From a virus, in the IMG/VR virus record IMGVR_UViG_3300025410_000035, positions 1-43,287 of that record: a stretch of 43,287 nt of DNA, one strand, 5' to 3'. The notes under the pieces are model-generated. The model worked only from the letters and a program-made list of their open reading frames with translations. It ran no database searches and had not been told where the DNA came from. Position numbers and translations under genes: made by a program. This document shows, in pieces, positions 1,558-26,834 of the stretch (the stretch's first letter is position 1; every line of letters starts with the position of its first letter).

Positions 1558-2132
1558 TTCCACGTAAAATTGCAACCGAAGAAGATGCGAACCGGTTATA
1601 CGACCATTTTCTAGAAGATATTGTTGGTCATGACCGTTATCTGAGGTTTGGTTATGCTGCATCCGATGCTAATATAATTGACTACTTAGATAAGGCCTTT
1701 GATGAATTTGGTTTCAAGAACATGTGGTTTATTGTTGAACACGAAAACGCTGGGGTTGTTGGCTCTGTTCATGTTACTTTTTATCCACTAAGCAAAGATG
1801 GTGATTATTCTGCTGAAATGGGATTCACCGTTTCACCAGAATTTCGTGGCCAAGGTCTAGGCCAAGAGTTATTCATTCGTGGTGCAACATGGGCAATGTC
1901 TAAAGGCGCAAAGACTCTATTCACTCAATGCCTATCAGATAATAAGGTAATGCAACACATCGCCAAGAAAAATGGCATGACTGTTGTAACGATTGCACAA
2001 GGTGAAAAAGAAGCCACTATTCAGGCAACAAAAGGTAAAATTCAATCCTACTTTGATGATAAGTACTTTGATAATCTTGCGTTTGTTGATAAGGCGGTAT
2101 CTTTACAACAACAAATTTTTAAATCATTATTG

Positions 2133-2141
<9 letters not shown>
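1554..2141 (+). CDS. GNAT-family N-acetyltransferase
   Basis: 195 aa. GNAT motif A is clear: AEMGFTVSPEFRGQGLGQEL around residues 87-106, with the acetyl-CoA pyrophosphate-binding R/Q-x-x-G-x-G/A signature RGQGLG. The motif B region is CLSDNKVMQHIAKKNGM. Substrate unknown. The stop codon lies inside the first base pairs of the tRNA that follows, so CDS and tRNA share 9 nt. Confidence 0.82.
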
Positions 2142-2209
<68 letters not shown>

Positions 2210-2226
2210 TTTTGAAGGAGTATATT

Positions 2227-2448
2227 ATGGATATGGATGTAGCAGCAGAAGTGCTTGCAGGTAGTATTTTGACTGGGTTATCTCTTATTATTTTTGTATC
2301 TACTGTTGTAGTAATTAACAACATCATACACCGATACTGGAAGCCAATTCAGATGTTTAAGTTCTTAGAGTACCCACCATCGGTACCGGAAGAATCAAAA
2401 ATTACCCAAAGTAACGACACTATCACCACGATTAAAAATAACAATTAG
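2227..2448 (+). CDS. Small single-pass membrane protein
   Basis: 73 aa. The ATG at 2227 follows AAGGAG by 5 nt. One long hydrophobic segment (about residues 9-33, GSILTGLSLIIFVSTVVVINNII) is followed by a basic/aromatic HRYWKP and a polar Asn/Thr-rich tail. No family recognised. Confidence 0.65.
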   Translation: MDMDVAAEVLAGSILTGLSLIIFVSTVVVINNIIHRYWKPIQMFKFLEYPPSVPEESKITQSNDTITTIKNNN

Positions 2449-2465
2449 ACTTTTGATGAAAATAG

Positions 2466-2474
2466 TGATATACT
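2466..2474 (+). promoter_or_regulatory. Extended -10 promoter before rubrerythrin
   Basis: TG-A-TATACT extended -10 element; a weak -35 (TTAGAC, 2445-2450) lies 18 bp upstream. Would serve the rubrerythrin-rubredoxin-dCMP deaminase genes. Confidence 0.45.
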
Positions 2475-2518
2475 ATCATAAGTAATTATTTGATTGCTAA
2501 ACTTTATAAAGGAAAAAT

Positions 2519-2968
2519 ATGTCAGTTACAATGAAAAATCTTGAGAGTGCATTGGCAGGCGAATCAATGGCTCACATCAAGTACCGTTATTTTGCTAAGT
2601 TGGCTCGTGCAGAAGGCTTTGAAGAAGTTGCAAAACACTTCGAACACACTGCTGACCAAGAAATTCTCCATGCATGGGGTCATTTAGAGTTACTAATTGG
2701 TAAACCAACAACTAAGAAATGCTTAGAACTTGCCATTGAAGGTGAGACACATGAATTCACAACCATGTATCCTGGTTTTGTTACCGATGCACAACAAGAA
2801 GGTCATCGTGCAGTAACAGAATTCCAAGAACAGGTTGACGAGTCTCAACAACATGCGGAACAATTCAAGAAAGTTCTAGAGATGGCTGAGAAACGTTTTG
2901 CTGCATTGGCTAAAGTTGAAAAACGTCATGCAGAAGCATATCAAGTTAAACTAGGAGAAATGAAATGA
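2519..2968 (+). CDS. Rubrerythrin-like diiron protein (ferritin-like domain)
   Basis: 149 aa four-helix ferritin-like domain. Candidate iron ligands are E15 in LAGES, E48-x-x-H51 in DQEILH, E76/E79 in EGETHEF and a late acidic/His helix (DESQQH). Rubrerythrins reduce peroxide using the diiron site. The usual C-terminal rubredoxin domain is missing here and is encoded by the next overlapping ORF (ATGA at 2965). AAGGAAAAAT precedes the ATG. Confidence 0.85.
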   Translation: MSVTMKNLESALAGESMAHIKYRYFAKLARAEGFEEVAKHFEHTADQEILHAWGHLELLIGKPTTKKCLELAIEGETHEFTTMYPGFVTDAQQEGHRAVTEFQEQVDESQQHAEQFKKVLEMAEKRFAALAKVEKRHAEAYQVKLGEMK

Positions 2969-3096
2969 GCGAAAGAATTTACGTTTGTGTAGTTTGTGGC
3001 CACCAATTGTCTGAAGCAGACTGGTTGAGTCTTCCTGATGAAGTCAACTGTCCAGAATGTGGTGTTTCTAAAAATGATTATGTGTTGATGGAATGA
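2965..3096 (+). CDS. Rubredoxin-like protein (separate rubrerythrin C-domain)
   Basis: 43 aa: MSERIYVCVVCGHQLSEADW, then CPECGVSKNDY. The two knuckles CVVCG (residues 8-12) and CPECG (29-33) give the four cysteines of a rubredoxin iron site, and GVSKNDY matches the end of rubrerythrin rubredoxin domains. It overlaps the ferritin-like gene by 4 nt and dCMP deaminase by 4 nt, so the three are translationally coupled. Likely electron donor to the diiron subunit. Confidence 0.82.
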   Translation: MSERIYVCVVCGHQLSEADWLSLPDEVNCPECGVSKNDYVLME

Positions 3097-3527
3097 AAGA
3101 AAAGTTTCGTAATGCGTATATGAGGGTGGCAGAGACTTTCGCAGGATTGTCTTCTGCCAGACGACTTCATGTTGGTGCCATTATTGTCAAAGATGACCGT
3201 ATCATAAGTATTGGTTATAACGGAATGCCATCCGGTTGGAACAATAATTGCGAGTTTGAATTCACTAATGAACAAACAAAAATAACAGAACTGGTAACTA
3301 AAGCTGAGGTTTTACATGCTGAAACAAATGCGATTGCAAAGTTGGCTAAATCGACCGAATCTGGTGATGGCGCTACTATGTTCGTTACCCACGCTCCTTG
3401 TTTGGACTGTGCCAAGTTGGTATATCAGAGTGGCATCAGTAACGTGTTCTATCGTGATGCTTACCGGAATGATAGTGGAATTTTATTCCTTGAAAAAGCC
3501 GGAGTTAAGGTAGAGCAGATTCGATAA
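3093..3527 (+). CDS. cd: Deoxycytidylate (dCMP) deaminase
   Basis: 144 aa. Zinc/catalytic signature HAETNA (H75-A-E77) and PCLDC (C103, C106) of the cytidine/deoxycytidylate deaminase fold, preceded by VGAIIVKDDRIISIGYNGMPSGWNN. Converts dCMP to dUMP, the substrate for thymidylate synthesis by the ThyX encoded at 40624. Equivalent to T4 gene cd. Its stop lies in a GATAAATA late-promoter-like element. Confidence 0.93.
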   Translation: MKEKFRNAYMRVAETFAGLSSARRLHVGAIIVKDDRIISIGYNGMPSGWNNNCEFEFTNEQTKITELVTKAEVLHAETNAIAKLAKSTESGDGATMFVTHAPCLDCAKLVYQSGISNVFYRDAYRNDSGILFLEKAGVKVEQIR

Positions 3528-3530
3528 ATA
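3523..3530 (+). promoter_or_regulatory. Late promoter-like GATAAATA
   Basis: One mismatch to the T4 late consensus; overlaps the dCMP deaminase stop codon, the same arrangement as at 725. Would serve the SprT-like gene. Confidence 0.45.
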
Positions 3531-3558
3531 GGTCGAGGACAACTCCTTGGAGAAACTG

Positions 3559-4095
3559 ATGCAACTAAGTATCATAAAATGTCCCGATAAAGAAAGATTT
3601 CGTCCTTTTGTGAAGCGTGCAACACACTTCTTTGCAGAAGAACTAATGACTAAAAATATGTTGGAAAACATACACTTAACCATCAAGTTTGATAAATCAC
3701 TTGAGGTTTGTGGATACGCATCTGTTGAGGAATACACATACTCTGGTAAAGCCAGAGAATTTTTGGTAGAAGTAAATCCAAATATCGGTGCAAGAGAAAT
3801 CTTGGAAACCATTGCACATGAAATGGTGCATGTCAAACAGTATGCTTACAGTGAAACCAACGAACGCCTAACCAGATGGAAAGGTGAATATATATCTGAT
3901 GATGTAGATTACTACAGTCAACCGTGGGAAATTGAAGCTTATGGTATGGCAGTAGGCCTACTTAACAAATTTGTGGTGAAAGAAAAATTGTGGGAAGTCT
4001 TTGAAGGTATTGCCAATCCAGACTCTCCAATTGAAAAGATACCTTTAGGATGGAAACGTTATGCAGAAGATTGTGTTAGTGACAGGAGGATTTGA
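3559..4095 (+). CDS. SprT-like zinc metalloprotease
   Basis: 178 aa from ATG 3559 (GGAG 6 nt upstream; an upstream in-frame TTG is less likely). The zincin motif HEMVHVKQ (H87-E88-x-x-H91) lies in an amphipathic helix, and PWEIEAY downstream is a likely third-ligand region. SprT-type phage proteins are seen in many T4-like phages; substrate unknown. The 3' end overlaps the next gene by 35 nt. Confidence 0.75.
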   Translation: MQLSIIKCPDKERFRPFVKRATHFFAEELMTKNMLENIHLTIKFDKSLEVCGYASVEEYTYSGKAREFLVEVNPNIGAREILETIAHEMVHVKQYAYSETNERLTRWKGEYISDDVDYYSQPWEIEAYGMAVGLLNKFVVKEKLWEVFEGIANPDSPIEKIPLGWKRYAEDCVSDRRI

Positions 4096-4822
4096 TCCTC
4101 TACATTCAGGTCACATTCAATATTTTAAAGAAGCCGCAAAACTCGGCGACTTATTGATTGTTGGTTTGAATAGTGATGCATGGTTAGAACGCAAAAAAGG
4201 TCGTGCGTTTATGCCTTTGAATGAACGCAAAACAATCATAGAACACCTTTCAATCCTTGATGCAGTTATCACATATAACGATGATGACAATTCAAGCAGA
4301 GCTGCAATTTTAAAAGTAAGAGAAATCTGGCCAGATGCAAGAATTATTTTTGCAAACGGTGGTGATAGAACACAATCAAATATTCCAGAAATGGATGTTG
4401 TAGATGACAACCTTGAATTTGTTTTTGGTGTAGGTGGTGAGAATAAGAAAAATTCTTCTTCATGGATTCTAAAAGAATGGAAAGCACCAAAGACTGACAG
4501 AGCTTGGGGTTACTATCGTGTTCTACATGAAGTACCTGGAATGAAAGTCAAAGAGTTGACTGTAGAACCTGGCAAATCTTTGAGTATGCAAAGACATTCA
4601 CATCGTGCTGAGTATTGGATCGTTAGTGAAGGTTGTTGTGTTGTGAATAGTATGATGAATGGTGGTTATGCATTACCTCCTCTGTTGTTAAACAAACACG
4701 ATGAATACAAAGTGCCTGTAGGTTCATGGCACCAACTAACTAATCCATTCGATCATCCTTGCAAGATTGTAGAGATACAATATGGTCTTGAATGTGATGA
4801 AGAAGATATCGAAAGAAAATAA
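4061..4822 (+). CDS. Cytidylyltransferase-like nucleotidyltransferase fused to a cupin
   Basis: 253 aa with two domains. Residues 1-140 are a HIGH-type nucleotidyltransferase (TGGFDPLHSGH, H15-x-G-H18) like the adenylyltransferase half of HldE/RfaE or glycerol-3-phosphate cytidylyltransferase. Residues 150-250 are a cupin resembling the C-terminus of mannose-6-phosphate isomerase/ManC (LSMQRHSHRAEYW, H179, H181, E184; later VPVGSWHQLTNP). This suggests a sugar-phosphate activating enzyme. ATG 4061 starts inside the SprT-like gene. Confidence 0.75.
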   Translation: MQKIVLVTGGFDPLHSGHIQYFKEAAKLGDLLIVGLNSDAWLERKKGRAFMPLNERKTIIEHLSILDAVITYNDDDNSSRAAILKVREIWPDARIIFANGGDRTQSNIPEMDVVDDNLEFVFGVGGENKKNSSSWILKEWKAPKTDRAWGYYRVLHEVPGMKVKELTVEPGKSLSMQRHSHRAEYWIVSEGCCVVNSMMNGGYALPPLLLNKHDEYKVPVGSWHQLTNPFDHPCKIVEIQYGLECDEEDIERK

Positions 4823-4825
4823 TTT

Positions 4826-4833
4826 AATAAATA
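4826..4833 (+). promoter_or_regulatory. Late promoter-like AATAAATA
   Basis: Close to the late consensus, just after the nucleotidyltransferase-cupin stop. Weak evidence alone. Confidence 0.3.
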
Positions 4834-4847
4834 TACCAAAATAGTTG

Positions 4848-4876
4848 TTGCCAAGGCTCAAAAGTTCCTATATAAT
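4848..4876 (+). promoter_or_regulatory. Sigma70-type promoter (TTGCCA-17-TATAAT)
   Basis: TTGCCA 4848-4853 and TATAAT 4871-4876, spacing 17. First of a series of near-identical promoters spread through the tRNA region. Confidence 0.72.
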
Positions 4877-4909
4877 ACAAACATTGAAAAATTTTTAGAA
4901 AGAAAATTC

Positions 4910-5035
4910 GTGTCTCTCATATCCCATAAACCCTTTTCGTTGCAACCAGAGTATCGCACAGTTACAAATAATTGTGGTGATAGCTCATGGGCGATTCAAA
5001 AAGGTGGGTTTTGTGTAGAGGGATGGGACGAATAA
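4910..5035 (+). CDS. Possible 41-aa protein
   Basis: GTG-started frame MSLISHKPFSLQPEYRTV... ending with CGDSSWAIQKGG and WDE. It lies between a good promoter (4848) and a good terminator (5063), which is the main argument for it. AGAAAG upstream is a weak Shine-Dalgarno sequence. No homology recognised; the segment could instead be an untranslated small RNA. Confidence 0.35.
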   Translation: MSLISHKPFSLQPEYRTVTNNCGDSSWAIQKGGFCVEGWDE

Positions 5036-5062
5036 CAAAGTTCTAAAAAAGATACCAAACGC

Positions 5063-5097
5063 AAAACCCTAGTCAGAGAAATCTACTAGGGTTTTTT
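5063..5097 (+). terminator. Rho-independent terminator
   Basis: AAAACCCTAGT / ACTAGGGTTTT perfect 11-bp stem with an 11-nt loop, then T6. It ends the 4848 transcript just before the tRNA array. A second small palindrome (TGTTGTTT/AAACAACA, 5101-5118) follows. Confidence 0.88.
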
Positions 5098-5124
5098 GTT
5101 TGTTGTTTTGAAACAACAAGTGTA

Positions 5125-5152
5125 TTGACAAGAATCTCGGTTCTGATACAAT
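5125..5152 (+). promoter_or_regulatory. tRNA-array promoter 1
   Basis: TTGACA 5125-5130, 16-bp spacer, TACAAT 5147-5152 with an extended TGA just upstream. Preceded by the TGTTGTTT/AAACAACA palindrome. Leads into the BoxA-like leader and the first tRNAs. Confidence 0.75.
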
Positions 5153-5159
5153 ACACACA

Positions 5160-5186
5160 TGTTCTTTAAAAATTTGTAGAGTCAAA
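5160..5186 (+). promoter_or_regulatory. BoxA-like leader element, copy 1
   Basis: TGTTCTTTAAAAATTTGTAG followed by AGTCAAA. The first 12 nt match the rRNA antitermination BoxA (E. coli TGCTCTTTAACA) except for two positions. Located right at the predicted transcription start. An exact 27-nt copy is at 6102-6128. Confidence 0.55.
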
Positions 5187-5193
5187 AAATTGT

Positions 5194-5269
5194 TCCCTGT
5201 TCGCCTAGTGGTCTAAGGCACCGGTCTTTGAAATCGGTATCATTGGTTCGAATCCAATACGGGGTGCCA
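5194..5269 (+). tRNA. tRNA-Gln (UUG)
   Basis: Anticodon loop CTTTGAA, stem CCGGT/ATCGG, T-arm ATTGG-TTCGAAT-CCAAT, G73 and encoded CCA. The 1:72 pair is an unpaired U-U, in keeping with the weak first pair of bacterial tRNA-Gln. Confidence 0.9.
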
Positions 5270-5347
5270 TATAAAAACACATTACTCTGCTGTCTTTTAC
5301 GGTGGAGAGGATTGTCTATTACGGTCCGTTAGTGTGTTTCTATATGG
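5267..5347 (+). repeat. Clamp hairpin element 1 (CCATATA...TATATGG)
   Basis: The spacer between tRNA-Gln and tRNA-Ser folds into a long stem. The 5' arm begins at the CCA of tRNA-Gln (CCATATAAAAACACATTA) and the 3' arm ends with the first GG of tRNA-Ser (TAGTGTGTTTCTATATGG), with two non-Watson-Crick positions. The enclosed ~45 nt contains the short palindrome ACGGTCCGT. Same design at 7142 and 8803. Possible RNase III or tRNA-processing signal. Confidence 0.7.
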
Positions 5348-5437
5348 AAGCGTGGTCGAGTCTGGTTTATGGCAGCAGTCTTGAAAACTGCCGGCTCAGG
5401 AATGGGTCCGTGAGTTCGAATCTCACCGCTTCCACCA
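5346..5437 (+). tRNA. tRNA-Ser (UGA)
   Basis: Class II cloverleaf: GGAAGCG/CGCTTCC, loop CTTGAAA, long variable arm, T-arm GTGAG-TTCGAAT-CTCAC, A73, CCA encoded. Confidence 0.93.
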
Positions 5438-5443
5438 AACAAC

Positions 5444-5535
5444 GGTGAGTTGGATGAGCGGTTTAAATCGGCAACCTGCTAAGTTGTTGTGTGTAGAAAT
5501 ATGCACCGTGGGTTCAAATCCCACACTCACCACCA
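5444..5535 (+). tRNA. tRNA-Ser (GCU)
   Basis: Class II cloverleaf: GGTGAGT/ACTCACC, anticodon stem GCAAC/GTTGT with loop CTGCTAA, long variable arm, T-arm GTGGG-TTCAAAT-CCCAC, A73, CCA. Confidence 0.93.
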
Positions 5536-5538
5536 AAT

Positions 5539-5630
5539 GCCTCGGTGGCTTGGTAGTCAGAGAGTCCTTATAAGACTTTTAGCGCCAGATTAGCGTTCTT
5601 GAGAAGGTTCGATTCCTTCCCGAGGTACCA
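5539..5630 (+). tRNA. Class II tRNA with apparent anticodon UAU (Leu-like body)
   Basis: GCCTCGG/CCGAGGT acceptor with G1-U72, A73 and CCA, a long variable arm (GCGC/GCGT stem) and T-arm GAAGG-TTCGATT-CCTTC are features of bacterial tRNA-Leu. Yet the 7-nt loop flanked by AGTC/GACT is CTTATAA, giving UAU (Ile, AUA) when U33 is kept. Either a Leu UAA gene with an altered loop or an odd class II Ile tRNA. Confidence 0.75.
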
Positions 5631-5645
5631 AATGAAAGTGAGATT

Positions 5646-5882
5646 ATGTGGAAAGTTTATTTGAGTGATCGTGATTGTTTTTTCAAAACATTGGATGAAG
5701 CAATGAAGTTTGCAACCAATGAAACAAACGAATTTGTAACCATCACCGATGGAACCACGGAAATTGTGGGTAAGTTTGGTGTTGATGCAGTAGAAAACAA
5801 AGTTCTACCGGATGGTGGAACATACGATTGGACTATGAGGCGTGATGAAACACACCGTAGTTCAAGGAAAAAGTTAGTGTAG
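5646..5882 (+). CDS. Hypothetical protein in the tRNA array
   Basis: 78 aa, MWKVYLSDRDCFFKTLDEAM..., small mixed alpha/beta protein with a basic C-terminus (HRSSRKKLV). AGTGAG lies 4 nt before the ATG. Flanked by tRNAs; the stop codon overlaps the first 4 nt of tRNA-Cys. No family recognised. Codon use resembles the neighbouring phage genes. Confidence 0.7.
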   Translation: MWKVYLSDRDCFFKTLDEAMKFATNETNEFVTITDGTTEIVGKFGVDAVENKVLPDGGTYDWTMRRDETHRSSRKKLV

Positions 5883-5954
5883 GCATGACCCGAATGGCTA
5901 GGGACTGGATTGCAAACTCAGTATATGCAGGTTCGACTCCTGTTGCCTACTCCA
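5879..5954 (+). tRNA. tRNA-Cys (GCA)
   Basis: GTAGGCA/TGCCTAC acceptor, loop TTGCAAA, T-arm GCAGG-TTCGACT-CCTGT, U73 as in bacterial tRNA-Cys, CCA encoded. Overlaps the preceding CDS stop by 4 nt. Confidence 0.92.
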
Positions 5955-5978
5955 AGTTGTAAAAAAACAACAAGACGG

Positions 5979-6006
5979 TTGACAAACTATCTGGTTGTGA
6001 TACAAT
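5979..6006 (+). promoter_or_regulatory. tRNA-array promoter 2
   Basis: TTGACA 5979-5984, 16-bp spacer, TACAAT 6001-6006 with upstream TGTGA. Preceded by a GTTGT/ACAAC palindrome (5956-5971), the same layout as promoters 1 and 3. Confidence 0.72.
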
Positions 6007-6065
6007 ACATTCATGTTTTGAGAAATCGAAACAAAAAACAGATGTTGTAATCATACAACAACTGG

Positions 6066-6094
6066 TTGCCAAGTAAGTGATGTTCTGATACAAT
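6066..6094 (+). promoter_or_regulatory. tRNA-array promoter 3
   Basis: TTGCCA 6066-6071, 17-bp spacer, TACAAT 6089-6094. Preceded by TGTTGT/ACAACA (6042-6059). Tandem to promoter 2, followed by the second BoxA-like leader. Confidence 0.72.
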
Positions 6095-6101
6095 ACTTAC
6101 T

Positions 6102-6128
6102 TGTTCTTTAAAAATTTGTAGAGTCAAA
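6102..6128 (+). promoter_or_regulatory. BoxA-like leader element, copy 2
   Basis: Exact 27-nt repeat of 5160-5186, beginning TGTTCTTTAAAAATT, again immediately downstream of a strong promoter and before a run of tRNAs. Confidence 0.55.
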
Positions 6129-6129
6129 T

Positions 6130-6204
6130 GCACGATTCGTCTATCGGTTAGGACGCTGCCCTTTCAAGGCGGAAAGACGAGTTCGATTCTCGTATCGTGT
6201 ACCA
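6130..6204 (+). tRNA. tRNA-Glu (UUC)
   Basis: GCACGAT/ATCGTGT, anticodon stem CTGCC/GGCGG with loop CTTTCAA, T-arm ACGAG-TTCGATT-CTCGT, A73, CCA encoded. Confidence 0.92.
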
Positions 6205-6410
6205 TACTAAAACACATTGGGTTACCAACTCCAGTAGGTGACTGGCAGAGAATTTCAGCAGCCGTGCTGACTCTGGCCATAATCACATGAAGCCTTCCGA
6301 TGGTGCTGGATAAAGTTGAAGTGTAATGTGGACATTGCCTTATCGGTGGACGGCACCGTGAGAAGACCCTGGTGGTAAAGGCATTGACACCCTAATGTGT
6401 TTTAGTATGG
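6202..6410 (+). repeat. Structured RNA domain closed by a perfect 17-bp inverted repeat
   Basis: Arms CCATACTAAAACACATT (6202-6218) and AATGTGTTTTAGTATGG (6394-6410) are exact reverse complements; GGGT/ACCC extends the stem. Inside, TCAGCA/TGCTGA and CAGAG/CTCTG form another hairpin. The 5' arm contains the CCA of tRNA-Glu. No ORF and no known RNA family recognised. Confidence 0.72.
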
Positions 6411-6537
6411 TATCATTTGTTTTGCTGATGTAAGCCACGGGGGAAACGTCAACCCCGAGTAACTGCGTACATAAACGGTAGTGTGGCCACCAATTCCGTT
6501 GAGCGTAGCAAATAGTGCGTCAGCAAAACAAATGATA
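6411..6537 (+). repeat. Structured RNA domain closed by a perfect 18-bp inverted repeat
   Basis: TATCATTTGTTTTGCTGA (6411-6428) pairs exactly with TCAGCAAAACAAATGATA (6520-6537). Abuts the preceding domain without a gap and ends 1 nt before tRNA-Lys. Internal hairpins: CGGGG/CCCCG and AACGG/CCGTT around GTGGCCAC. Confidence 0.72.
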
Positions 6538-6538
6538 T

Positions 6539-6613
6539 GGGGGTATAACTTAACGGCTAAAGTAGCTGGCTTTTAACCAGCAAATCAGAGTTCGATTCTC
6601 TGTGCCCCTACCA
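6539..6613 (+). tRNA. tRNA-Lys (UUU)
   Basis: GGGGGTA/TGCCCCT (two wobbles), anticodon stem GCTGG/CCAGC with loop CTTTTAA, T-arm CAGAG-TTCGATT-CTCTG, A73, CCA. Confidence 0.92.
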
Positions 6614-6622
6614 AAAAGTTAT

Positions 6623-6708
6623 GGAGACATGGCAGAGCGGTTGATTGCACCAGACTGTAAATCTGGCCCCTAAAAAGCACGGTGGTTCGAATCCATCTGT
6701 CTCCACCA
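6623..6708 (+). tRNA. tRNA-Tyr (GUA)
   Basis: Class II: GGAGACA/TGTCTCC, stem CCAGA/TCTGG with loop CTGTAAA, variable arm, T-loop TTCGAAT, A73, CCA. Confidence 0.93.
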
Positions 6709-6875: not shown

Positions 6876-6933
6876 AGGATACTTGCAGCAAGCAAAAAAC
6901 TTTTTATTGGAAAAAAGAAAAGGTATCCTGTTG
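6876..6933 (+). ncRNA. CAGCAA-type structured RNA, member a
   Basis: Closing stem AGGATAC (6876-6882)/GTATCCT (6923-6929), then GTTG. After the 5' strand comes the shared motif CAGCAA and an A-rich run. The interior holds only one hairpin, CTTTTT/AAAAAG. Lies between tRNA-Asn and tRNA-Pro. Member of a five-copy family (7512, 8624, 10569, 10673); function unknown. Confidence 0.6.
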
Positions 6934-7066: not shown

Positions 7067-7069
7067 TAT

Positions 7070-7144
7070 GGGGGCAGCAGTGGGCTGCGGTTCTCCCTTG
7101 CAAGGAGAATGTCTAGAAGGATTCGATTTCCTCGGCCTCCACCA
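7070..7144 (+). tRNA. tRNA-Ala (UGC)
   Basis: GGGGGCA/GGCCTCC acceptor (last pair mismatched), anticodon stem TCTCC/GGAGA with loop CTTGCAA, T-loop TTCGATT, A73, CCA encoded. Confidence 0.87.
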
Positions 7145-7270
7145 TATAAAAACATTCTGAGTGACTACAGCGGATAAACAGTAAACTTGCAAATGTCGAC
7201 CAATGCAAGAACCTGCCGTGAAGTAGGGTCACCATGAGATTCAAGGACTCGGCAGAGTGTTTCTATATGG
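7142..7270 (+). repeat. Clamp hairpin element 2 (CCATATA...TATATGG)
   Basis: Arms CCATATAAAAACATTCT (7142-7158) and AGAGTGTTTCTATATGG (7254-7270), linking the CCA of tRNA-Ala to the GG of tRNA-Met. Interior 95 nt is branched: CTTGCA/TGCAAG hairpin inside a GTGACTAC/GTAGGGTCAC stem. The 8th position of the stem is mismatched as in elements 1 and 3. Confidence 0.7.
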
Positions 7271-7511: not shown

Positions 7512-7577
7512 AGGATAGTAACAGCAAAAATTATACATTAGACTTTTAATCTAAACCGTAAAAATTCTATCCTGTTG
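7512..7577 (+). ncRNA. CAGCAA-type structured RNA, member b
   Basis: Closing stem AGGATAG (7512-7518)/CTATCCT (7567-7573), followed by GTTG. CAGCAA and an A-rich strand follow the 5' arm. The interior hairpin TTAGA-CTTTTAA-TCTAA (7538-7554) has the exact geometry of a tRNA-Lys(UUU) anticodon arm, but no T-arm is visible, so it is not a functional tRNA gene by eye. Confidence 0.6.
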
Positions 7578-7677: not shown

Positions 7678-8160
7678 ATGAAAGATTTTAACATACAAGA
7701 AGTAAAAGACTTCATTTTGGCTCAAGGTCAAGACACTAAGATTTATCTTGGTGCAGACTCCGAACGTGTTAGAATTAACGGCGTTTGGTACGCTGACTAC
7801 GCTCTAGCGGTTGTAGTTCATATTGATGGCCGTCATGGTTGTAAAATCTTTGGTTTCGTGGATCGTGAAATCGACTACGACCATAAGAAAAGCAAACCTG
7901 CAATGCGTTTGATGACCGAAGTATACAAGGTATCAGAATTGTTCCAAGAAATGCAGGACGTGTTGGAAGACCGTCATGTAGAAGTTCACTTGGACTTGAA
8001 CAAGGATGAAAACCATGGTTCTTCTTGTGTTGTTCAACAAGCGATTGGTTATATCAAAGGTACATGTAACATGACACCTATGGTTAAGCCAAACGCACCT
8101 GCTGCATCATTCTGTGCTGACCGTCTTAAGCGAATTCTAGCAGAACAAGAAGCAGTATAA
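7678..8160 (+). CDS. YkuK/DUF458-like RNase H-fold protein
   Basis: 160 aa from ATG 7678 (AAGGTGA upstream). The pattern IYLGADSER (residues 22-30), EVHLDLNKDE (102-111), GYIKG and MVKPNAPAASFCADRL (134-150) matches the predicted RNase H-like family PF04308 (B. subtilis YkuK), with conserved D27, D106 and D148 as plausible metal ligands. Biochemical role not established for the family. Embedded among tRNAs, so an RNA-processing role is an attractive inference. Confidence 0.72.
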   Translation: MKDFNIQEVKDFILAQGQDTKIYLGADSERVRINGVWYADYALAVVVHIDGRHGCKIFGFVDREIDYDHKKSKPAMRLMTEVYKVSELFQEMQDVLEDRHVEVHLDLNKDENHGSSCVVQQAIGYIKGTCNMTPMVKPNAPAASFCADRLKRILAEQEAV

Positions 8161-8356: not shown

Positions 8357-8533
8357 TTTGTAAGTGTAGATGTTGAGAAAGCATGGCCTCGAAAACCATG
8401 TGAGGAGAAGTCCACACGGGATATGGTGCCCGCTCCAAGTATCAACTGTTACTACGTACCTCTAACCAGTCGGCCGCTTTAAAGAAAATACTGGTAAAAT
8501 GTTGGGAAATGAAGGAGGTCCCATGCTTACAAA
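8357..8533 (+). ncRNA. Multibranched structured RNA spacer with a perfect Shine-Dalgarno
   Basis: Closed by TTTGTAAG (8357-8364)/CTTACAAA (8526-8533). Inside, GTTGA/TCAAC (8372/8442) encloses CATGG/CCATG (8382/8396) and CGGG/CCCG (8417/8429); then ACCAGT/ACTGGT (8465/8490). AAGGAGGT at 8512-8519 is a full anti-Shine-Dalgarno complement 3 nt before an ATG opening a 10-codon frame that runs into tRNA-Phe. No known family recognised. Confidence 0.5.
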
Positions 8534-8541
8534 TTCAATAT

Positions 8542-8617
8542 GCAACTCTAGCTGATGTGGTCATAGCGGCGGTCTGAAGAGCCGTTGAAACAGGTTCGAT
8601 TCCTGTGGGTTGCACCA
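8542..8617 (+). tRNA. tRNA-Phe (GAA)
   Basis: GCAACTC/GGGTTGC, D-arm GCT/AGC, loop CTGAAGA, T-arm ACAGG-TTCGATT-CCTGT, A73, CCA encoded. Confidence 0.91.
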
Positions 8618-8623
8618 AGTTTA

Positions 8624-8725
8624 AGGATCGGTTCAGCAAACCAAAACGTACGGTCATGGTGACCAATTTGACTTATAATCAAACCTTGGGGGTTCAATTC
8701 CCTCTACAAAAAAACGATCCTGTTA
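8624..8725 (+). ncRNA. CAGCAA-type structured RNA, member c, enclosing a tRNA-like core
   Basis: Closing stem AGGATCG (8624-8630)/CGATCCT (8715-8721), then GTTA; TTCAGCAA follows the 5' arm. The interior is a tRNA body without a normal acceptor: GGTC/GACC D-like arm (8652-8664), anticodon arm TTTGA-CTTATAA-TCAAA (8667-8683, UAU) and T-arm GGGGG-TTCAATT-CCCTC (8688-8704), closed only by GTA/TAC. Resembles the tRNA-like module of bacterial Y RNAs in design, not in sequence. Confidence 0.62.
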
Positions 8726-8728
8726 TAT

Positions 8729-8805
8729 GCCCTCCTATCCCAATTGGTAGAGGAAGCAGTTTCAAACACTGTGTAGTCTGAGTTCGAATCTCAGGGTGGG
8801 CACCA
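8729..8805 (+). tRNA. tRNA-Leu (CAA), class I body
   Basis: GCCCTCC/GGTGGGC (one mismatch), stem GCAGT/ACTGT with loop TTCAAAC, T-arm CTGAG-TTCGAAT-CTCAG, A73, CCA. The variable region is only GTAGT instead of the long arm normal for bacterial tRNA-Leu. Confidence 0.87.
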
Positions 8806-8900
8806 TATACAAACATTCTAAACTGGACGCAGGATCGGAGAAGGTTGAAAGTGGGTTAGCTACCACAAGTATGCTGGAGATTAAGAATGTTTCTATATGG
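8803..8900 (+). repeat. Clamp hairpin element 3 (CCATATA...TATATGG)
   Basis: Arms CCATATACAAACATTCTAA (8803-8821) and TTAAGAATGTTTCTATATGG (8881-8900), spanning from the CCA of tRNA-Leu to the GG of tRNA-Lys. C-C mismatch at stem position 8. Interior hairpin GTGG/CCAC around TAGCTA. Confidence 0.7.
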
Positions 8901-8973
8901 GTTATAAGCTTAAGTGATGAAGCAACCGGCTCTTAACCGGTAGAACAGAGTTTGATTCTCTGATGACCCACCA
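8899..8973 (+). tRNA. tRNA-Lys (CUU)
   Basis: GGGTTAT/ATGACCC, stem ACCGG/CCGGT with loop CTCTTAA, T-arm CAGAG-TTTGATT-CTCTG, A73, CCA. Second lysine isoacceptor, reading AAG. Confidence 0.9.
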
Positions 8974-10478: not shown

Positions 10479-10505
10479 AACTGTGGCATATTTACAACAT
10501 GTCGC

Positions 10506-10534
10506 TTGACTCTACAAATTTTTTGTGATACAAT
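10506..10534 (+). promoter_or_regulatory. Promoter of the structured-RNA/Ro-like operon
   Basis: TTGACT 10506-10511, 17 bp, TACAAT 10529-10534 with upstream TGTGA. The spacer contains GACTCTACAAATTTTT (10508-10523), the exact reverse complement of the second half of the BoxA-like leader repeat. First transcript features are RNA elements d and e, then the Ro-like gene. Confidence 0.72.
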
Positions 10535-10568
10535 AACATCTTGTTATGAAACATTGAAGAAAGTTTTT

Positions 10569-10666
10569 AGGTAAGGTTCAGCAACAAAAATTTTCGGATC
10601 ATATCCGAGCCCGTCTGTGAGTTTCGATTTCTCACTTTAATCAAAAAGTAGAAAACTTACCTGTTG
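10569..10666 (+). ncRNA. CAGCAA-type structured RNA, member d, with tRNA-like arms
   Basis: Closing stem AGGTAAG (10569-10575)/CTTACCT (10656-10662), then GTTG and T7. GTTCAGCAA plus an A-rich strand follows the 5' arm. Interior: anticodon-like arm TTCGG-ATCATAT-CCGAG (10593-10609) and T-arm-like GTGAG/CTCAC (10617-10635) with a TTCGATT loop core. The T-run may stop part of the transcripts, giving a free RNA of about 100 nt. Confidence 0.65.
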
Positions 10667-10672
10667 TTTTTT

Positions 10673-10844
10673 TGGATGAATTCAGCAAAACAAAAATAAC
10701 TTGAGCTTATGCTCACGCCTCGCACCGAAAGGTGATAGTGTCCATAGAATATGGAATCGATTTCAATAGCGAGTATTGAATAGGGTTGTGAAAGTATACA
10801 CATGGCAACCAGAAAATAAATTACAGCTTTCGGTCATCCAGTTA
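10673..10844 (+). ncRNA. CAGCAA-type structured RNA, member e (leader of the Ro-like gene)
   Basis: Closing stem TGGATGA (10673-10679)/TCATCCA (10834-10840), then GTTA. TTCAGCAAAACAAAAAT follows the 5' arm. Interior hairpins: TGAGC/GCTCA, CACC-GAAA-GGTG, CCATA/TATGG, TTCAATA/TATTGAA and GGTTG/CAACC. The element ends just before the AAGGAG of the Ro-like gene, so binding or folding here could also control translation. Confidence 0.6.
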
Positions 10845-10861
10845 TTTTGAAGGAGTTAATA

Positions 10862-25464: not shown

Positions 25465-26834
25465 CCAAATTAGTTATCTTTGACCTTGATGGTGTGTTAC
25501 TTGATTCACGTGAATTACATTATGAAGCTTTGAATGAAGCACTTCGTAAAATCGGTGAACAATTCATAATCACCAGAGAAGAACACCTATCGACCTACGA
25601 TGGGTTAAACACCACCAAAAAACTCCAGTTGTTATCACAAAACAAAGGTTTGCCAACAGAATTGTACGACCAAGTTTGGCAAGATAAACAACAAGCAACC
25701 TTTGACTTAATTCCAAATGCACCAAAAAATCCTTCAATAAGATATATTGTAGGCCAATTAAAGTTGCATGGTTGGAAAGTTGCTGTTGCATCAAACTCAA
25801 TACGACACACAGTAAAGCTTGCATTAGCTTCTATGGGTGTATTGGAACACATTGATTACTATGTGAGTAATGAAGATGTGTTTAGAACAAAACCATATCC
25901 AGAAATGTATTGGAAATGCATGACCGCATTAGGTGCTTTACCAAAAGATACAATCATCGTTGAAGATAGTCACATTGGTCGTGAAGGTGCAATCAATTCT
26001 GGCGCAACATTATATCCAGTGAAAGATGCTTACGAATTAAATGGTATAGTGTTTATGCAATATCTCGAAAGCTTTGAGAAATCACAAACAAGTAAAAATA
26101 TACCATGGAGAAATAAAAAGATGAACGTACTTATTCCTATGGCTGGTGCAGGTTCTAGATTTGCACAAGCTGGTTATACATTCCCTAAACCATTGATTGA
26201 TGTGAATGGTAAACCAATGATTCAGGTTGTGGTTGATAACCTAAACGTTGAAGCACACTTCATTTTCTTGGTTCAAAAAGAACACTACGAGAAGTACAAT
26301 CTACAATCAGTTTTGAATTTGATTGCACCTGGATGTGATATTGTACAAGTTGATGGCTTGACAGAAGGTGCTGCATGTACTACACTATTAGCTAAAGACT
26401 TCATTAATAATGATGAACCATTGTTGATGGCTAACTCAGACCAATTCGTAGAATGGAACTCCAATGAATGTTTATATGCTTTTACTGCCGACTCAATTGA
26501 TGGTGGCATTGTCACTTTTAAGTCAACTCATCCTAAGTGGTCTTTTGCCAAAATCGGAGAAGACGGATTTGTTACAGAAGTCGCTGAGAAGAATCCTATT
26601 AGTGACATTGCTACTGTCGGTATTTACTATTGGAGCCATGGTTCTGACTACGTGAAGTATGCAGAACAGATGATTGCAAAAAATATTCGTGTCAATAACG
26701 AATACTATGTTTGTCCAGTATTCAATGAAGCTATTGCAGATGGCAAGAAATTCCGTGTGAAGAACATTAATAAAATGTGGGGTCTAGGTACTCCAGAAGA
26801 TTTACAACATTATTTGGAACACCACAAATCATGA
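25461..26834 (+). CDS. HAD phosphatase fused to sugar nucleotidylyltransferase
   Basis: 457 aa. Residues 1-215: HAD hydrolase with DLDGVLLD (D8, D10), VASNS and IVEDSHIG, beta-phosphoglucomutase-like. Residues 221-457: nucleotidylyltransferase with PMAGAGSRFAQAGYTFPKPLI and NSDQFVEW, like RfbA/GlmU-type enzymes. One polypeptide could dephosphorylate and activate sugar phosphates. An internal ATG at 26121 opens the second domain and might give a separate product. Confidence 0.83.
   Translation: MTKLVIFDLDGVLLDSRELHYEALNEALRKIGEQFIITREEHLSTYDGLNTTKKLQLLSQNKGLPTELYDQVWQDKQQATFDLIPNAPKNPSIRYIVGQLKLHGWKVAVASNSIRHTVKLALASMGVLEHIDYYVSNEDVFRTKPYPEMYWKCMTALGALPKDTIIVEDSHIGREGAINSGATLYPVKDAYELNGIVFMQYLESFEKSQTSKNIPWRNKKMNVLIPMAGAGSRFAQAGYTFPKPLIDVNGKPMIQVVVDNLNVEAHFIFLVQKEHYEKYNLQSVLNLIAPGCDIVQVDGLTEGAACTTLLAKDFINNDEPLLMANSDQFVEWNSNECLYAFTADSIDGGIVTFKSTHPKWSFAKIGEDGFVTEVAEKNPISDIATVGIYYWSHGSDYVKYAEQMIAKNIRVNNEYYVCPVFNEAIADGKKFRVKNINKMWGLGTPEDLQHYLEHHKS

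Follow-up and report, generated by a model that had tools for sequence, protein, structure and literature searches.

An acceptor-less tRNA-like RNA in a phage tRNA array carries a recurring, Y-RNA-like frame associated with DUF2828 genes

A tRNA-like RNA within the phage tRNA array

The window analyzed here, the whole 43,287-nucleotide stretch of IMG/VR record IMGVR_UViG_3300025410_000035, is a fragment of a large phage. ARAGORN identifies 28 tRNA genes, 27 of them in one array at ~5.2-12.6 kb, and BLASTN comparison of the array with phages returns mostly ordinary tRNA genes. A tRNA-Ile(TAT) at 5539-5630 is 92 nt long with a long variable region, and the tRNA-Ile-TAT of phage DLP_6 is also 92 nt (L229:20701-20792). 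Two further segments are missed by ARAGORN: 8899-8970, which the Rfam tRNA model matches with 53.4 bits and whose loop, CTCTTAA, reads Lys CTT, and ~7069-7146, missed by Rfam as well, which resembles tRNA-Ala with a CTTGCAA loop, an ACCA end and an unusual D-arm region.

Between tRNA-Phe (8542-8617) and tRNA-Leu (8729-8805) lies an RNA at which ARAGORN calls no tRNA. It comprises the following parts:

8624..8721, + strand: acceptor-less tRNA-like RNA in its frame, the main finding (direct reading, relatives, covariation)
8624-8630 / 8715-8721, + strand: 7-bp closing stem AGGATCG/CGATCCT, read from the sequence
8634-8639, + strand: CAGCAA, separated from the 5' closing-stem strand by a GTT spacer and followed by a linker
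8648-8650 / 8705-8707, + strand: inner 3-bp helix GTA/TAC in the acceptor's place
8652-8664, + strand: D-arm GGTC-ATGGT-GACC, with GG in the D-loop
8667-8683, + strand: anticodon arm TTTGA-CTTATAA-TCAAA, followed by CCTT
8688-8704, + strand: T-arm GGGGG-TTCAATT-CCCTC, followed by TAC, seven A and the 3' closing-stem strand
8722..8725, + strand: conserved tail GUUR following the closing stem (GTT terminates 255 strict frames)

The RNA proper stops at 8721; its tail is GTTA, and CCA is absent. An earlier note on this DNA had described a D-like arm, an anticodon arm with loop CTTATAA, a T-arm with loop TTCAATT, GTA/TAC in place of an acceptor and no CCA, and direct reading confirms every part. 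The Rfam tRNA model (RF00005) matches 8648-8708 with 26.0 bits (E 0.05) against a gathering score of 29, and the 3-bp stem and GUUA tail likewise place the RNA outside this family, which has a 7-bp acceptor and CCA. The sub-threshold match and the lack of an ARAGORN call rule out an ordinary tRNA. Apart from this match, no Rfam family is found over 8624-8721 at gathering score or at E 10. The folding energy of the segment is weak (z -1.33), and minimum free energy alone is uninformative.

Comparison with relatives decides the matter in favor of the structure. Acceptor-less tRNA cores in the same frame occur in ~20 phages, including the cultured Stenotrophomonas phage DLP_6; a one-off capture of a tRNA gene by the element, one origin offered in the earlier note, is thus unsupported. 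In a MAFFT alignment that included all 21 acceptor-less copies, some rows had misplaced 3' ends; covariation at the 24 proposed pairs was therefore counted on 17 aligned relatives with the same layout. Among these, 97.8% of pairing cells are paired, compared with 79.3% after shuffling and 32-46% when partners are slid, and both-sided changes are present at 16 of the 24 pairs. The covariation score is 0.505, against 0.151 for shuffled and 0.04-0.10 for slid pairs. All five helices are backed by covariation, including the 3-bp GTA/TAC helix, where every one of the three pairs changes on both sides and 86% of cells pair. The closing stem retains 7/7 pairs with 100% of cells paired and double changes at three pairs. 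Unaided, RNAalifold recovers the frame, D, anticodon and T helices from the alignment of acceptor-less relatives, but not the 3-bp inner stem. GG in the D-loop never varies and TTCRA in the T-loop hardly does, which is what retention of the tRNA elbow would predict. The anticodon arm is strongly conserved as TTTNN-CTTNTAA-NNAAA; CTTCTAA is the commonest loop, CTTTTAA, CTTTCAA and CTCATAA occur too, and the Ile/UAU anticodon is therefore a variant specific to the window copy.

A constant frame with variable payloads

The frame consists of a 7-bp stem, 3 nt, CAGCAA, a variable payload, the 3' stem strand and GU. A search for its strict form (N7-N3-CAGCAA-payload-N7'-GTT) covered 82 records that surround the DUF2828 gene of the window and its relatives; the gene strand carries 255 frames, the opposite strand one, and mono-nucleotide shuffles give 1.3. 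Each element is specific in this search: other permutations of CAGCAA yield at most 13 frames each, gaps other than exactly 3 at most 15, and among the 64 trinucleotides tried as tails, GTT (255) is followed by a next best of 23 and a median of 3. A slightly relaxed frame recovers 575 distinct sequences in 256 phage-locus records, many of them mutually related, such that the counts are not independent events. Five frames are present in the window, at 8624-8721 and at four sister positions:

6876..6929, + strand: sister frame, 54 nt, plain hairpin payload
7512..7573, + strand: sister frame, 62 nt, isolated anticodon-arm mimic TTAGA-CTTTTAA-TCTAA
10569..10662, + strand: sister frame, 94 nt, payload of a hairpin plus a T-arm-like part
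10673..10840, + strand: sister frame, 168 nt, located in the DUF2828 gene's 5' leader, with its end ~20 nt before the ATG

The payloads include isolated anticodon arms, acceptor-less tRNAs, circularly permuted tRNAs, plain hairpins and longer structures; these classes were set by simple pattern rules, and their sizes are approximate. In about 70 payloads, a T-arm precedes an acceptor hairpin that is sealed; most of these have a recognizable D-arm, and they are circularly permuted tRNAs; the 7-bp acceptor is closed by a short loop in many sister copies, and an anticodon arm is present in some and absent in others. Among the short frames (44-70 nt, 292 in number), 114 contain an anticodon-like hairpin of 5 bp and 7 nt, whereas shuffling predicts 1.7; UUU and UGU lead among their anticodons. 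Many payloads are without any tRNA feature, which indicates that tRNA mimicry is not the whole function. Moreover, the elbow is common to the acceptor-less and permuted payloads, and the anticodon arm to the acceptor-less and short ones, so that no single tRNA-binding partner fits all and a set of baits is favored.

This variety bears on two simple readings of the 8624-8721 RNA. In the first, it is a decayed tRNA pseudogene, functionless itself and trapped in a transcript-processing hairpin; its position in a 28-gene tRNA array and its score just under the tRNA gathering threshold fit such a history. Nonetheless, all helices show strong compensatory covariation in phages down to quite different sequence, the acceptor-less design recurs across ~20 phages, and the same frame holds non-tRNA payloads. 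A pseudogene is therefore very unlikely, and a neutral one is ruled out by the conserved covariation. In the second, an ordinary intron-containing or permuted tRNA gene regains its acceptor through splicing, as the acceptor-like 7-bp length of the closing stem might suggest. Two insertions, one per side, would then have to be removed, and the tail is GUUA rather than NCCA. Further, the same stem, spacing and CAGCAA surround payloads without tRNA in hundreds of other frame copies; the closing stem is part of the frame itself, and the arrangement that the earlier note had named as fatal to its reading, a permuted or spliced gene with a restored acceptor, is not what is found. Spliced tRNA is thus ruled out, with only the slightest residual probability. 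The reading of the core as a tRNA mimic, by comparison, is well supported, and the mimic fills the variable position of a frame that recurs in linkage with the gene of a Ro60-fold protein.

The DUF2828 protein, Y RNAs and a proposed role

Downstream of the frames lies a single proposed partner gene:

10862..12301, + strand: DUF2828/DUF7788-vWA protein with a predicted Ro60 (TROVE + vWA) fold, the proposed frame-binding partner (Pfam, PHROGs, AlphaFold2 with Foldseek/VIA-align)

Pfam detects DUF2828, DUF7788 and VWA domains only, with no sequence match to TROVE, and phmmer against PDB sequences returns nothing significant, so that the Ro60 likeness is visible by structure comparison alone. PHROGs assigns the protein to phrog_850, RNA-binding protein, and some mycobacteriophage records label it 'Ro-like RNA binding protein'. 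An AlphaFold2 model (pLDDT 76, pTM 0.74) gives six Foldseek PDB hits at E <= 0.001, all of them Ro60/TROVE proteins, including D. radiodurans Rsr and the Ro60 of Thermus phage phiLo. With VIA-align, the Z score to 9kop is 18.8 over 395 residues; Ro60 1yvr gives 16.5 and D. radiodurans Rsr 12.8, and the best match to a vWA-only structure reaches 11.8. The helical-repeat plus vWA fold is thus common to the DUF2828 model and solved Ro60/TROVE proteins (1YVR, 2NVO, Thermus phage phiLo 9L5Y; Z 12.8-18.8), although identity is only 11-15% and the Pfam TROVE match is lacking. As modeled, DUF2828 is a Ro60-fold protein with TROVE and vWA parts.

Frames and DUF2828 genes are closely linked. In the phage loci, a frame lies <=200 nt upstream of the start codon in 75 of 76 usable DUF2828 genes, compared with 8 of 515 other ORFs; starting from the frame, 24 of 27 frame-bearing contigs encode DUF2828, a gene that is rare overall (673 of 50,697 phage records). 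Ten of 11 cultured phages examined carry frames near DUF2828 (KVP40, BUCT-ZZ01, S13, DLP_6, wV8, LeBron, A511, CPX, RHph_I1_18 and Milchi), in a scan that accepts any tail starting with G and has some background (40 hits on the gene strand, 6 on the opposite one). In jumbo phage GAP32, DUF2828 is present and no frame is found in the flanks scanned. Bacterial DUF2828 loci also carry frames (163 on the gene strand vs 19 on the opposite), mostly in Clostridia, Synergistaceae and Chloroflexi, on contigs that may include prophages, and with a different stem consensus, AAGGCAC/GTGCCTT. On a 522-kb contig of Chloroflexi bacterium 54-19 (L263), 24 Rfam tRNAs at 1770-6686 are arrayed around the DUF2828 gene, and three frames lie upstream of that gene.

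A second protein also recurs at these loci. The window encodes an RNase H-like PF04308 protein at 7678-8160, relatives of which are found in 40 of 80 DUF2828 loci, and in KVP40 a PF04308 gene directly follows DUF2828. It is a possible effector candidate.

The placement of one frame nearly always just upstream of the DUF2828 start, as a leader element, would also suit an RNA that acts in cis (as operon leader, attenuator or processing signal, for example) instead of in trans as part of an RNP, and frames lie just upstream of 14 of 38 PF04308 RNase H-like genes as well. However, most copies, including that at 8624, are flanked by tRNA genes and precede no coding sequence, and LeBron and wV8 carry tandem copies 3' of the DUF2828 gene. 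A purely cis-acting role is accordingly improbable, and a trans-acting, Y-RNA-like RNA is the preferred reading.

Y RNAs tether tRNA-like modules to Ro60. In the YrlA RNA, the D, T and acceptor arms form a module that is modified by DusA and TruB and tethered to Rsr (PMC8394870). YrlA (RF02553) and the frame RNAs are both encoded beside a Ro60-type gene, and in both the ends pair as a basal stem around a tRNA-like module that lacks CCA. They differ in what is kept: the window copy retains the D, anticodon and T arms but not the acceptor, whereas in YrlA it is the anticodon that is replaced. The basal motif differs also, since N3-CAGCAA takes the place, in the frame, of the canonical Ro60-binding sequence of the YrlA consensus, and the frame's payload is highly variable. 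RF02553 (gathering score 69 bits) does not match 8624-8721 even at E 10, and the YrlA topology, in which T, loop-closed acceptor and D arms are arranged with the basal stem replacing the anticodon stem, is not that of the window copy. Score and topology thus rule out YrlA membership. Frames in three other loci (L013, L018 and L231) do show a YrlA-like permuted topology, and a LeBron frame located immediately 3' of the Ro-like gene reaches 39.8 bits (E 1.9e-7) against the YrlA model; this score is under the gathering value of 69 and the best of any frame, and it links the frame dock with Y RNAs. Two features of the Y RNA class are present in the window copy: its 5' and 3' ends pair as a basal stem, and its frame is encoded with a Ro60 orthologue (75/76 DUF2828 loci, by fold). 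The window RNA would act as a Y RNA yet lies outside the YrlA family, and looks like a member of a widespread new Y RNA branch.

Phage Y RNAs have been proposed before. PMC12282133 reports Y RNAs for mycobacteriophages (citing Chen et al. 2014) and suggests them for Listeria phage CKA15, whose DUF2828 homologue CKA15_055 has an HHpred match to D. radiodurans Rsr. These proposals pair a phage Ro-like protein with suspected Y RNAs, as is the case here, but the passages on them do not describe the frame motif. The highly transcribed noncoding region of CKA15, 26,236-26,727, corresponds to about 10,490-11,020 of the Listeria phage A511 locus (L232). No frame is found there, at ~10490-11050, and three frames lie just downstream, directly before the gene (L232 11702-11965); these coordinates rule out the super-abundant CKA15 RNA as a member of the frame family. 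PMC7824862 also mentions a jumbo-phage Ro/TROVE protein, which in cells has a tRNA-like partner. The frame motif, the DUF2828 link, the acceptor-less topology and the payload variety are absent from Rfam and were not found in the literature searched, which lay outside the original YrlA reports (Chen 2014, Sim 2020). Small, stable RNAs inside a phage tRNA gene cluster have a precedent in T4 stable RNAs C and D, for which no function has so far been found.

Taken together, the 8624-8721 RNA is most probably a Y-RNA-like noncoding RNA in which the frame docks a Ro60-fold DUF2828 protein and the acceptor-less tRNA core serves as an effector or decoy module. The frame RNA may be cut out of the tRNA transcript. 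Its stem, 3 nt, CAGCAA, A-rich 3' strand and GU tail would, by analogy, form the dock for the DUF2828 protein, which is encoded ~2.1 kb downstream. The core would display a tRNA elbow and anticodon arm that cannot be aminoacylated, and could thereby hold a tRNA-binding protein on a phage Ro60 particle or act as a decoy for it. Such a protein might be a modification enzyme, an exonuclease like PNPase or a tRNA nuclease of the host, and the other tRNA pieces of the sister frames may be other baits. The position of one frame immediately ahead of the DUF2828 start codon suggests autoregulation of the Ro60 protein. We infer physical binding, processing of the tRNA transcript, the effector and decoy roles and autoregulation, while the covarying structure, the frame family, its DUF2828 linkage and the Ro60 fold are results of the analysis. 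More tentatively, the frames may constitute a large unregistered class of phage and bacterial Ro60 RNAs, with one dock, interchangeable tRNA-piece baits for tRNA-targeting enzymes that include host immune nucleases, and an autoregulated Ro60.

A narrower version holds that the payloads are decoys for tRNA-targeting immunity that sequester anticodon nucleases or similar enzymes, while the Ro60 protein merely stabilizes or concentrates them. Isolated anticodon arms are the commonest recognizable payload, with UUU and UGU most frequent, the anticodon arm of the acceptor-less cores is strongly conserved, and the copies are located in a phage tRNA array; the tRNA-like domain of YrlA has also been proposed as a competitive inhibitor of anticodon nuclease (PMC7790460). 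On the other hand, the nuclease did not cut Salmonella YrlA in that study, some permuted payloads (T, acceptor and D arms) are without an anticodon arm, and the family is found in Clostridia and other bacterial genomes, where the need for an anti-defense decoy is not obvious. This narrower version is rather unlikely, and docking of varied modules on the DUF2828 protein remains the preferred reading.

The frames may be useful beyond this phage. A short searchable motif finds hundreds of Y-RNA-like frames, many in tandem, tied to a gene family still named DUF2828. Bacterial Y RNAs have been described in few systems, and their tRNA-like module has, to our knowledge, still no assigned partner. Frames occur in bacterial genomes and in cultured, tractable phages (KVP40, wV8/Felix O1-like, LeBron, A511), and since one frame carries several kinds of tRNA mimic, payload swapping can ask what the tRNA-like part binds. 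The payloads also suggest how phages with tRNA arrays might handle tRNA-cutting defenses.

Other structured segments in the array and relatives

The array contains further segments with paired ends. The segment at ~8363-8536 is closed by TTTGTAAG/CTTACAAA and has relatives in three other loci (L024:6140-6337, L051:6027-6238 and L061:177-389) with the same CTTACA-AATTCAAT end. CAGCAA follows the stem in these relatives, some of which carry a permuted tRNA-like part, and the segment and its relatives are probably a sister RNA class.

Long inverted repeats with arms of 29, 18 and 20 nt are present at 6200-6412, 6411-6537 and 8803-8900, respectively; they lie between tRNA genes, and their arms are 58-155 nt apart. 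Similar segments closed by AAACA..TGTTTCTATATGG lie at ~5273-5349 and ~7145-7268. All of these resemble structured RNAs of a kind other than the frames. In KVP40, three genes annotated 'tRNA-Pseudo' (L225 8507-8619, 8630-8753 and 10304-10419) are tRNA-like with an insertion between the D-arm and the anticodon/T region, and a ACTGACAAG motif is common to two of them.
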